DNA of 64,000 nt from Bacteroidota bacterium (GTDB taxonomy: Bacteria; Bacteroidota; Bacteroidia; UKL13-3), in the NCBI GenBank assembly GCA_013298895.1, contig JAAFJM010000014.1:1-64000 (forward strand), in the 5' to 3' direction. The notes under the pieces were generated by a model. That model searched no databases. It saw nothing but the letters and a program-made list of their open reading frames with translations, and was not told the origin of the DNA. How positions within the stretch are numbered: position 1 is the first letter of the stretch; each line of letters begins with the position of its first letter. The translations under genes were made by a program, and so were the position numbers. This document shows positions 47,206 to 51,735 of this stretch, piece by piece.

Positions 47206-47521
47206 TTAGTTATCTGAAACATTTACTTTTGTGCTGCTGTAAGTAGAGTCGGTTTTTATAAACTGATAATTTTGCCATTTAATCTTAACTTTTGCTTCTG
47301 AAGTATTAGCAGTTTGGTACAGTCTTAGTTTTATAGGAAGTTTTTGATTTGGTGTTTGGAGCGCTGTATACTGACACTTCCTTGTAGGAAGGTAGGTAAT
47401 AATTACCAATTTCAGGCTTGCCAATATCTCCAATATTGACATTTGTTATAAGGCCTTTTTCTTCTTATTGAGCCAATGCATTCGAAGAAATAGATATGAA
47501 CAGGAATACTAAAAATTTCAT
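47206..47521 (-). pseudogene. Broken gene for a small secreted protein
   Basis: From ATG 47521, the minus strand reads a clear signal peptide (MKFLVFLFISISSNALAQ) and then a TAA stop. The same frame continues with EEKGLITNVNIGDIGKPEIG and NYYLPSYKEVSVYSAPNT. It then shifts at an A5 run near 47341. Removing one A restores KLPIKLRLYQTANTSEAKV and a natural end at 47206. A 78-codon frame (47206-47442) is only its out-of-frame part. I read it as a gene of about 104 codons inactivated by one nonsense and one frameshift change. The intact protein is not recognised. Confidence 0.72.
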
Positions 47522-47731
47522 GTGGTAAAAATAAGTGATTGGAATTGTTTTTTTTGAATGGGTTAAAACAATTTCATTTGATATAAAAGCAGGCATTATA
47601 AAAACATACAACATTTAAAAAACTTTGTACCTTGCCAATTTTCATCTACAAAAATCATATTAATTAAAAGTAAATGTAATCATTACCAATAAAAATGAAC
47701 TTACTTTCGCAATTCAAAATCCTTTATTTTC

Positions 47732-48393: not shown

Positions 48394-49134
48394 ATGTATA
48401 AACAATATATTTTTGCTTGTCTTTTTACTGGTGTTTACGATGTGAACCGTTCGGGAATATTACCCAATGATGATTATTTGTTAATTGAAAAATGGGCAAA
48501 TTCCATTACTGCTTTAAAACTTCATGGTATTATTTTCCATAATAGCTTTTCAGCTGAAACGGTGGCCAAATACAGTAATGAGTTTATTTCTTTTCAAGAG
48601 GTAACATATAATCCAAATTACAACTTAAGTGTATATAGGTATTTTGTTTATTTGGATTTTTTAATGAAAAATCACCACGAAATTGAATCGCTTTTTATAA
48701 CTGATAGTACTGATGTAGAAGTGGTAATTAATCCTTTTGAGCAGCCATTGTTTAAAAATAATCCCACTGCACTATTTTGTGGCGATGAACCAACTACTTT
48801 AAATAATGAATGGATGATGCAACATTCAACCCATTTTAGAAATCAAATAACAGCATTTGCAGCATATGAAGAAAAATTTGCTAATGATACTTTACTCAAT
48901 TGCGGAATTATAGGTGGAACCATAACTACCATGACAGCTTTGCTGAATGAATTGGTGAATTTTCATAGCCATTTTAACAAAAATAATAAGACAGCTTATA
49001 CAGGGGATATGGGTGCATTAAATTACATAGCTCGCAATCAATTTAACAATCAGTTAATTCATGGAGCTCCAGTAAATACTTTATTTAAAGGATATGAAAG
49101 TGATAACAATAGTTGCTGGTTTAGACATAAATAA
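48394..49134 (+). CDS. Putative GT-A-type glycosyltransferase
   Basis: This 246-residue protein has the central pattern SLFITDSTDVEVVINPF, which resembles the metal-binding DxD segment of glycosyltransferases (LTDxRDVxxxxNPF). CGIIGG and YTGDMGALNYI are further features of this fold. The N-terminus is soluble. It follows a GT2 gene and the two probably act together on a cell-surface glycan. The family is a weak match by eye. The gene ends 17 bases before the repeat array. Confidence 0.6.
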   Translation: MYKQYIFACLFTGVYDVNRSGILPNDDYLLIEKWANSITALKLHGIIFHNSFSAETVAKYSNEFISFQEVTYNPNYNLSVYRYFVYLDFLMKNHHEIESLFITDSTDVEVVINPFEQPLFKNNPTALFCGDEPTTLNNEWMMQHSTHFRNQITAFAAYEEKFANDTLLNCGIIGGTITTMTALLNELVNFHSHFNKNNKTAYTGDMGALNYIARNQFNNQLIHGAPVNTLFKGYESDNNSCWFRHK

Positions 49135-49150
49135 CAATTTATTTATTCTT

Positions 49151-49776
49151 AGAATGGGTTGAAACCCATTTCAATTGATTTATAAGGCAAATTATTTTTT
49201 AAGGGCTAAAGCCCATTGTTTGAGGATGATAAAATGTTTGAATCAATTGGAATGGCATTTATGCCATTTTCTTTTTAGAATGGGTTAAAACCCATTTCAA
49301 TTGATTTATAAGGCAAAATGTTTTTTTAAGGGCTGAAGCCCATTTTTTGAGGATGATAAAATGTATGAATCAATTGGAATGGTATTTATGCCATTTTCTT
49401 TTTAGAATGGGTTAAAACCCATTTCAATTGATTTATAAGGCAAATTATTTTCTAAGGGCTGAAGCCCATTGTTTGAGGATGATAAAATATATGAATCAAT
49501 TGGAATGGCATTTATGCCATTTTCTTTTTAGAATGGGTTAAAACCCATTTCAATTGATTTATAAGGCAACATGTTTTTTTAAGGGCTGAAGCCCATTGTT
49601 TGAGGATTATAAAATGTATGAATCAATTGGAATGGTATTTATGCCATTTTCTTTTTAGAATGGGTTAAAACCCATTTCAATTGATTTATAAGGCAAATTA
49701 TTTTTTAAGGGCTAAAGCCCATTGTTTGAGGATGATAAAATGTATGAATCAATTGGAATGGTATTTATGCCATTTT
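49151..49776. repeat. REP-like tandem array, five units of about 126.5 bp
   Basis: Units start with AGAATGGGTT at 49151, 49277, 49404, 49530 and 49657. Each contains three palindromes in order: AATGGGTT-N2-AACCCATT, GGGCT-N2-AGCCC and AATGGCAT-N2-ATGCCATT (the last sometimes GGT for GGC). TCAATTGATT and AATCAATTGG flank the middle palindrome and are complementary to each other, so the whole unit can fold as three hairpins around one stem. Units 1, 3 and 5 share AAATTATTTT, while 2 and 4 share a longer T run after ATG, so the array seems to have grown in pairs. It ends 28 bases before the transposase gene. Confidence 0.92.
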
Positions 49777-49803
49777 GAAAGGAAAGTAGATTTAATAAAT
49801 TAG

Positions 49804-50241
49804 TTATTCTTTAAATTTTTGAAATCCATTTTTCGAAATAAATTCATCAAATTCTTGATTTAATGTATTATAGAGGTGATGTTCTTCTTGGTTTTTAATA
49901 TAATTTCTTACTGTTTCAATCATAGATTCAGAAACTGAAACTGCATAATATTCATCTTGCCATTCAAATTTCTGTTCTGTTATTAAGTGTTTGTTTATCC
50001 AAAAGGATGATTCGCCTTTTATCAATTGTATTATTTGCTGTATTGTTTGGTTACTGTTCATTGAAACTAAGCAATGACAATGGTCACTATATCCATTTAC
50101 ATAGTCAATAAAAATACCTTTTTTATGAGCATTTTCTTTAATGTGGTTCCATACTTTTTGTCTAATTTCTTTGCTATTTAATAGTGGAACTCTATTTTTA
50201 GTACTCCAAACAAAATGGATATAAACCTTAATAAATGGCAT
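49804..50241 (-). CDS. IS200/REP-type Y1 transposase (RAYT)
   Basis: This 145-residue protein is a single Y1 HUH transposase domain. The HUH pair is H54 and H56 in YSDHCHCLVSM, and the catalytic tyrosine is most likely Y114 in RNYIKNQEEHH. YIHFVWSTKNR at the N-terminus and FEWQDEYYAVSVSES are typical of REP-associated members. No accessory tnpB is nearby, and the gene sits between repeats on both sides. It may process the repeats as single-stranded hairpins. It reads complete, with ATG 50241, so it may be active. Confidence 0.92.
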   Translation of the reverse strand: MPFIKVYIHFVWSTKNRVPLLNSKEIRQKVWNHIKENAHKKGIFIDYVNGYSDHCHCLVSMNSNQTIQQIIQLIKGESSFWINKHLITEQKFEWQDEYYAVSVSESMIETVRNYIKNQEEHHLYNTLNQEFDEFISKNGFQKFKE

Positions 50242-50301
50242 AATAAGTTTACTGGTGTTTTTTCAATTGCAATATATTTATTTTTTAAAATCTTTCTTTT
50301 T

Positions 50302-50515
50302 AGAATGGGTTAAAACCCATTTCAATTGAATGAAAAGGCAAAATGTTTTTAAGGGCTGAAGCCCATTTTTAAAGATTATAAAATGTTTGAATCAATTGTA
50401 TGCCAATTCCTTTTTACATGGTTAAAACCCATTCCAATTGATTTATAAGACAAATTATTTTTTAAGGTATAAAGCCCAATTTTTTTGAAAATTATAAAAT
50501 GTATGTATCAATTAT
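50302..50515. repeat. Two decayed units of the REP-like array on the other side of the transposase gene
   Basis: Unit 6 begins at 50302 with AGAATGGGTT and keeps the first two palindromes but loses most of the third. Unit 7 starts near 50416 with ACATGGTTAAAACCC and is changed at many sites (AAGGTATAAAGCCC). Both point the same way as the five units at 49151-49776. In the gene-free gap 50242-50712 around them I found nothing else supported. Confidence 0.85.
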
Positions 50516-50712: not shown

Positions 50713-51735
50713 ATGGCAATGTTAGCAGGTCTTAGGTTTATTGTAAACACTTCATTGCTCAAAAATAATAAGAGTGGTGAGGAACATGAACTGACGCTTT
50801 CAAGTGGTAAAACACCTCTGCTTTTATATAAACCTGCAAAAAAAGAAAAAGGACTCATTATTTCTCTTACAGGCTTTTCTATGCATGGCTATCAAGATAA
50901 ACGCATAGCAGTAGTGAACAATACCTTTGTAAAATTAGGTTACCGTGTAATAACGCCCCAAATAAATACCATTGATGCCTTATTGATTCATCCATCAGGT
51001 ATTGATGAAGTGAAAGAAGTTTTTAATCAAATTAGGGGAGATTCATTTTTGAACCCAAACAAGTTTCGTCCTGCTGTTTTTGCTCCTTCTTTTACTGCTG
51101 GCATAGCAGCTTTGGCAATTACTGAAATGCCTGTAAACAGTGTTTCTTCTTTTTGTTTAATAGGAGGTTTTTGTGATTTTGAATCTACCATTCAGTTTGC
51201 TTTAACCAACGAAAAAAATGTAGATGATTATGGCATGCATGTTTTAATGAAAAACTTTTTGAAATATGAAGTTGGAAATAATCCTGCATTAGAAGCATTA
51301 GTTCATACAGCCTTAGCAGATAATGGCTTAAAAAGACAAGTGCCTTTGCTGCCAAACTTACTTGCACAAACCGATGAAGCTACTGTTGAATTGTATAACA
51401 AAATTAAATTTAACACTGAATACAGAAGTGAGTTAATTATGCGTGCTTGGACAAAAATTCCTGATTTTGCTATTTGGAAAGACCGACTTGATTTGTCGAA
51501 ACATGCGTATAAAATTTCTTGCCCTGTTACCATTATTCATGGAAAAGACGATAATGTAATACCTTCTGCTCAGTCTATATTATTATATTCATTATTGAAA
51601 GACAAAAACCCAAAAGTGTATTTAGAAGTATCTAATTTACTGGACCACGGAGATATGAAAGTTGGGTTTAAAATTGTTAGTGAGATTACCAGTTTGGCGA
51701 AGGCTTTTAATTATTTTATGGATCATATTAAATAA
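50713..51735 (+). CDS. Alpha/beta hydrolase fold protein
   Basis: This 340-residue protein has LLLYKPAKKEKGLIISLTGFS (strand and oxyanion region), an altered nucleophile elbow in VFAPSFTAGIAAL, and TIIHGKDDNVIPSAQ with the acid and a histidine in LLDHGDMK. The elbow is PSFTAG rather than GxSxG, so the nucleophile is weakly supported. No signal peptide was seen. It is next to the repeat array but unrelated to it. The substrate is unknown. Confidence 0.78.
   Translation: MAMLAGLRFIVNTSLLKNNKSGEEHELTLSSGKTPLLLYKPAKKEKGLIISLTGFSMHGYQDKRIAVVNNTFVKLGYRVITPQINTIDALLIHPSGIDEVKEVFNQIRGDSFLNPNKFRPAVFAPSFTAGIAALAITEMPVNSVSSFCLIGGFCDFESTIQFALTNEKNVDDYGMHVLMKNFLKYEVGNNPALEALVHTALADNGLKRQVPLLPNLLAQTDEATVELYNKIKFNTEYRSELIMRAWTKIPDFAIWKDRLDLSKHAYKISCPVTIIHGKDDNVIPSAQSILLYSLLKDKNPKVYLEVSNLLDHGDMKVGFKIVSEITSLAKAFNYFMDHIK

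Follow-up and report, generated by a model that had tools for sequence, protein, structure and literature searches.

The stretch analysed here, referred to as the window, comprises 64,000 nucleotides of a Bacteroidota bacterium (lineage UKL13-3; contig JAAFJM010000014.1 of assembly GCA_013298895.1) and contains, between the end of a 246-aa open reading frame (ORF) at 49134 and the start of a 340-aa ORF at 50713, a Y1 transposase gene (tnpA) embedded in an array of direct repeats (Table 1). Seven copies of the repeat follow one another at successive spacings of 126, 127, 126, 127, 645 and 112 bp, the first five being 93–97% identical to each other and the two across the gene 78–91% identical to those five. 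An earlier note, made from the sequence alone, had described seven direct repeats of about 126 bp around a complete Y1 gene, five in good condition and two decayed, which the spacings, the identities and the 145-aa ORF bear out, although the array starts nearer 49142 than 49151 as given there. A 253-bp block of two units is repeated at 96% identity within the array, and no clear signal of within-genome homogenisation of the units was obtained (82% identity within, 81% between genomes).

Table 1. Coordinates of tnpA, the repeat array and related features in the window.
Feature	Position	Strand	Basis
Array of five 126/127-bp units, A-B-A-B-A pattern, 253-bp dimer repeat	49142..49776		Repeat and identity comparison
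tnpA, Y1 HUH transposase, putative TnpAY1 subclass 1.2 type, 145 aa, DHCH / WQ / YIKNQEEHH	49804..50241	(-)	ORF, profiles, motifs, AlphaFold model match to IS608/ISDra2 TnpA
Gene-less inverted unit 1: HP3-10 bp-HP1, complementary outer feet AATCAATTG / CAATTGATT	49241..49310	(+)	Inverted-repeat search
Gene-less inverted unit 2 (HP3-HP1)	49364..49437	(+)	Inverted-repeat search; fold z -3.5 in HP3-HP1 phase
Gene-less inverted unit 3 (HP3-HP1)	49490..49563	(+)	Inverted-repeat search
Gene-less inverted unit 4 (HP3-HP1)	49617..49690	(+)	Inverted-repeat search
Terminal half unit: HP1 arm, outer end of array	49153..49184	(+)	Sequence and repeat search
HP2 (GGGCTAAAGCCC), first spacer hairpin between inverted units	49203..49214	(+)	Present in each good unit; comparable central hairpin in L059
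HP3 arm adjoining tnpA 3' end (arm b in gene orientation)	49743..49776	(+)	Sequence and repeat search
HP1 arm adjoining tnpA 5' end (arm c in gene orientation)	50291..50330	(+)	Unit 95% identical to corresponding G003 copy
Decayed unit remnants, tnpA 5' side (two decayed units span 50291-50515)	50331..50515	(+)	Repeat and identity comparison
Outlying HP1 fragment (E 1e-5), perhaps left by a deletion	47544..47589	(+)	Corresponding region of relative G006 has a 588-aa ORF between unit pieces

Three palindromes (HP1, HP2 and HP3) are present in each unit, as had been noted before, but they are best read as two inverted arms and a spacer. The best inverted pairing is that of HP3 with HP1, whose arms of 28–32 nt are 79–82% complementary, lie 10 bp apart and end in CAATTGATT-type feet; this pairing crosses the border of the unit as it had first been drawn, and HP2 thereby falls into the spacer. 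The natural unit is an inverted repeat of 70–74 bp (HP3-10 bp-HP1), separated from the next one by about 52 bp containing HP2. Units fold into structures more stable than those of shuffled sequences (z -2.7 to -3.5), with the lowest value in the HP3-HP1 phase. The transposase gene sits exactly at an HP3/HP1 junction, with HP3 on its 3' side and HP1 on its 5' side, where the other units hold 10 bp.

Y1_Tnp (E 2e-28) is the sole Pfam domain of the encoded protein, which ends at 145 aa. It scores above the cut-off of the NCBIfam IS200 model, while reaching 31.9 bits against a cut-off of 80 with NF047646, the model for REP-associated tyrosine transposases (RAYTs; REP, repetitive extragenic palindrome). 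Its AlphaFold model (pLDDT 81) has a predicted fold matching IS608 TnpA in complex with hairpin DNA, and the nearest solved chains, both by sequence and by fold, are the TnpA proteins of IS608 and ISDra2, with the E. coli RAYT (4er8) matching more weakly. The class-2 motif Y---NP is not present in the window protein, which carries Y---Q--HH (YIKNQEEHH) instead; together with DHCH (DHxH), WQ and the length of 145 aa, this fits a protein of the TnpAY1 subclass 1.2 type (Quentin et al., 2018, PMC6006769) and not a classical RAYT, so that the RAYT-like character proposed in the earlier note is not retained. The strict pattern Y-[IVL]-x-N-Q-x-x-H was found in 68 of 79 homologues, the remaining 11 not having been inspected singly.

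The arms usually recur around these homologues, as revealed by a sample of 79 homologous loci in other Bacteroidota, for which control genes from the same loci provided the flanks for comparison. Hairpins no more than 300 nt past the 3' end of the gene were detected at 67 of 74 homologous loci and in 26 of 88 control genes (p 4e-16), 14-mers common to the 5' and 3' flanks at 38 of 74 loci and in 2 of 88 controls (p 4e-14), and inverted similarity between the two flanks also exceeded that of the controls (p 1e-10). The usual order is a foot (AATTG-like), a large hairpin, about 25 nt, a small GGCTTTAGCC hairpin and the gene, followed by the mirror image. Read in gene orientation, the 3' side typically consists of TTGGCTAAAGCCAA, which often follows the stop codon directly or overlaps it, then some 25 nt and CCTCCAG-NTAAAN-CTGGAGG-CAATTCA, and the 5' side has the mirror layout; the first of these hairpins (a) begins 0–6 nt past the stop codon in many loci, the second (b) mostly 30–50 nt past it. 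The hairpins do not have a 5' GT[AG]G foot, the conserved foot being CAATTCA / AATTG beside the hairpin, and a search of Rfam gave no significant match to them (best E 0.08, well short of the gathering scores). Among 52 aligned loci, picked by eye for having these hairpins, 12 of 14 base pairs showed double changes; 60 double-change cells were counted, compared to a shuffle value of 12.7 and a maximum of 16 in slid controls. One-sided changes amounted to only 14 cells, with few G-T intermediates, a scarcity that fits selection on DNA hairpins. At seven loci (L058, L069, L075, L082, L084, L119 and L124) the 3' half of hairpin b together with CAATTCA is found in short-period tandem reiteration, which would fit repeated cutting at the CAATTCA foot or slippage, without being proof of either.

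The presence of arms also follows that of the gene from genome to genome. A covariance model of one arm (R1) was run against 197 genomes of the class, and a protein model against what was apparently the same draw; protein matches with E <= 1e-40 were regarded as close genes, a line drawn after the list had been seen. Of the 34 genomes with a close gene, 29 contained R1 arms, compared to 9 of the 163 without one (Fisher p 8e-22, which ignores phylogeny), and four of the five close-gene genomes without R1 matches show the same layout with other hairpin sequences. A search of plasmids returned just two distant matches. In three genomes (G151, G119 and G067) the arm matches are paired, facing outward and 7–14 nt apart, and the resulting unit of about 122 bp, AATTGCC-hairpin...GGCTTTAGCC...GGCTAAAGCC...hairpin-GGCAATT, has the order [c d][a b], c and d being the hairpins 5' of the gene; it corresponds to the surroundings of the gene minus the gene. 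Since the dispersed units of G151 and G067 thereby match the HP3-HP1 phase of the window, the reading of the window unit as one three-palindrome REP was dropped, as was a unit [a b x c d] that placed the gene between entire units, which had first been drawn from tandem arrays and was abandoned after reading the dispersed pairs. G067 harbours one gene and 18 full gene-less copies, 78–100% identical to the query, while sister species have none; the readable 5' side of the G067 gene bears the arm hairpin CCGTTGGTTTTAACCAACGG, which is also found in dispersed copies. An empty site was sought for the G067 unit, and the search revealed instead its nesting in another inverted repeat. This second dispersed inverted repeat, GTCATTGCGAGA...GAAGCAATC (L207–L215, L259–L270), has empty copies in G144 and G067 and, in G067, also copies that contain the 122-bp unit at their centre. 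A further genome (G077, L248–L250) contains dispersed single arms of one large and one small hairpin, not pairs, resembling REP singlets.

For the gene-bearing form, a difference between sister species was observed: in G113 a 567-bp c-d-tnpA-a-b element, arms included, lies between ychF and parE (names read from the translated flanks), and in G223 these two genes are adjacent without it. Within the genus of the window, full arrays were found only in G000, G003 and G006, which are also the only genomes whose orthologue is at least 94% identical; small unit remnants occur in G001 and G009, and orthologues occupy the same locus in related species. Clean insertion junctions were sought within the genus and none was obtained, because partial rearrangement has affected both the neighbouring genes and the unit positions in the three genomes with full arrays. 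Outside the locus, the host genome contains only two convincing unit fragments (47544–47589 and contig C4:64191–64236); the unit is essentially confined to its locus there, and its dispersal is therefore seen in relatives and not in the host. Near the first of these fragments (47350–47590), a 302-aa ORF that is intact in G006 appears broken in the host, and the 588-aa ORF that is flanked by unit pieces in G006 is missing; the unit fragments may represent deletion endpoints.

Four Y1 matches were found in the host genome, the other three being 33–54% identical to the window gene (low copy, divergent) and having their own, different hairpin repeats nearby. In a repeat of one such paralogue (host contig C34, L032:1994–2013 and 2146–2163), a palindrome of about 18–20 bp, TCCCGAAAGCTTTCGGGA, is inserted in both inverted hairpins of one unit and missing from both hairpins of the neighbouring unit, which suggests that the two arms of one unit are homogenised. 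Several paralogues in the genus are flanked by arms of differing sequence, so that specificity could be tested on several enzyme/substrate pairs from closely related species. Around Y1 genes of the genus that are more distant (L137–L159), other families of inverted hairpins are found, e.g., CAACGGGTTGAAACCCGTTG with GAGCCTACGGCTC, or ATTCAACTCCTTCGGAGTTG.

We consider it likely that tnpA encodes a single-stranded DNA transposase of the HUH/Y1 type belonging to subclass 1.2, and that the surrounding hairpin arms are its recognition and cleavage substrates, in a system resembling REPtrons and TIRtrons. This reading builds on the anatomy of the arms, their conservation and covariation, the statistical link between gene and arms, the dispersed gene-less units and the presence or absence of the gene-bearing element between sister species. 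In its general form an arm comprises a foot (AATTG or TTGAAT), a large hairpin with a stem of 6–8 bp and a TTTA-like loop and, some 25 nt further on, a small GGC-TTTA-GCC hairpin, and two such inverted arms enclose either the gene or merely 7–14 nt, the gene-less pairs being putative non-autonomous units of REPIN- or MITE-like (miniature inverted-repeat transposable element) character. By analogy with IS608 and TnpAREP (PMC8266576), the enzyme would bind the folded single-stranded arms, the foot would pick a cleavage site at or near it, and strands would be joined via Tyr114; gene-less pairs would presumably be mobilised or copied in trans where replication forks expose single-stranded DNA, with the gene staying low-copy. 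The window might then represent a lineage with each arm cut down to one hairpin, in which the units have multiplied locally, partly through duplication of the two-unit block. We also lean towards the view that subclass 1.2 forms a further REP-type lineage, each gene diversifying with its own arm family, and that many unexplained palindromic intergenic repeats of Bacteroidota (GGCTAAAGCC with CCTCCAGCTAAAGCTGGAGG, CAACTCCTTCGGAGTTG, CAACGGGTTGAAACCCGTTG) are its non-autonomous products.

Several observations speak against a substrate role of the arms. Most of the G067 copies are nested in the larger inverted repeat, which also occurs elsewhere without them, and the cause of their spread is therefore ambiguous; G119 has four arm matches and no transposase match, G151 has 26 with only a distant transposase relative, and the window unit is not dispersed in the host genome. 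Moreover, an insertion junction exact to the base was not obtained, including at the empty site of the 567-bp element in G223, and tandem growth in the window could have occurred by slippage or recombination alone. These points bear on claims of the earlier note as well, which had proposed to look for scattered copies in host and relatives and saw the link refuted if copies occurred only here or also in genomes lacking a related transposase. Such copies amount to two fragments in the host, where the link fails by that test, and to dispersed units in some relatives; G119 has units but no detectable relative of the transposase, and the association across genomes holds nonetheless. Its central proposals, that gene and repeats belong together and that they represent a Bacteroidota form whose substrate differs from the classical REP, have nevertheless gained support, as the same arms flank homologues phylum-wide, arm presence tracks the gene, and arrays in the genus accompany only the close orthologues.

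An ordinary autonomous IS200-like insertion sequence (IS) with unusual, symmetrical ends, whose gene and arms move together and whose gene-less pairs are MITEs derived by internal deletion, with no REP-like specialisation, is possible but in our view rather doubtful. It would agree with the lack of the complete 567-bp element at the orthologous G223 site, with the position of the gene precisely where gene-less units hold 7–14 nt, and with best structural matches to IS608 and ISDra2 TnpA instead of RAYT. However, the divergence of the host paralogues is unlike the near-identical copies of an active IS, a single gene in G067 stands against 18 full gene-less units, orthologues keep the same locus in related species, and the arms are inverted and symmetrical, whereas the left-end and right-end (LE/RE) hairpins of IS608 are non-inverted.

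That the hairpins act as RNA, terminating the transposase mRNA or regulating it by their structure, in an array grown by slippage, seems improbable: they do lie just outside the reading frame at a fairly fixed distance, and gene-adjacent palindromes can affect transcripts, but no significant Rfam match was obtained, a clear T run is generally missing after the hairpins, compensatory changes rarely pass via G-U forms, the arms on the two sides of the gene are mirror images, and gene-less inverted pairs lie scattered at places far away from transposase genes. Least credible of all is a neutral tandem repeat that just lies beside a transposase gene. The restriction of the unit to this locus in the host genome and the five copies of 93–97% identity with their dimer periodicity would suit it, but similar architecture around homologues throughout the phylum (p <= 1e-10 versus control genes) and the strong co-occurrence of gene and arms (29/34 vs. 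9/163) speak against it.

If the arms are indeed the substrates of the enzyme, they would provide candidate substrates for a transposase subclass reported to have none, and would predict which palindromic repeats of a Bacteroidota genome pair with which enzyme; as the papers searched were open-access ones, such a system may have been described earlier elsewhere or in ISfinder. They also bear on the origin of REP systems from insertion sequences, the units being intermediate between an IS, with the gene inside inverted ends, and a REPIN, a gene-less inverted pair.

The window protein shares with TnpAY1 subclass 1.2 (PMC6006769) its length (145 aa; median 148 in that survey), the DHxH, WQ and Y---Q--HH motifs, occurrence in Bacteroidetes, low copy number and divergent paralogues. 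Quentin et al. (2018) described this subclass as being without REP and generally without IS200-type terminal structures, whereas in our sample most members have structured arms around them and some genomes also contain gene-less units. The automatic search for REPs in that survey relied on GT[AG]G-tagged hairpins, a rule that the arms found here do not fit. The system shares with IS200/IS605 elements (IS608, ISDra2) and their non-autonomous derivatives a single HUH/Y1 enzyme of similar fold and hairpin ends, but its ends are inverted mirror images, no multiple near-identical gene-bearing copies were found in the host genome and genus, and no tnpB-like ORF lies beside the gene in the window. 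As in REPtrons (RAYT/TnpAREP), a low-copy Y1 gene lies between inverted hairpins, putatively non-autonomous inverted pairs occur elsewhere in some genomes (in G067 mostly nested in another repeat), repeat families appear gene-specific and units have multiplied locally beside the gene, as reported for Marinomonas (PMC8266576); unlike in REPtrons, the Y---NP motif of class 2 is missing, the foot is AATTG/TTGAAT and not GTAG, the arms usually consist of two hairpins, and the unit measures 74–150 bp. TIRtrons (Di Nocera et al., 2013, PMC3733652) likewise comprise a Y1 gene within terminal inverted repeats, some of them self-complementary, and small gene-less repeat families, but most TIRYTs are subclass 2.1 proteins that have an additional C-terminal domain, and GGGGWSAS is often present in their terminal inverted repeats, whereas Pfam revealed no C-terminal DnaA/HTH-like domain in the window protein and GGGGWSAS was not seen in the flanks of its gene. 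Belonging neither to the class-2 RAYTs nor to the TIRYTs, the system nevertheless behaves like a REPtron or TIRtron.
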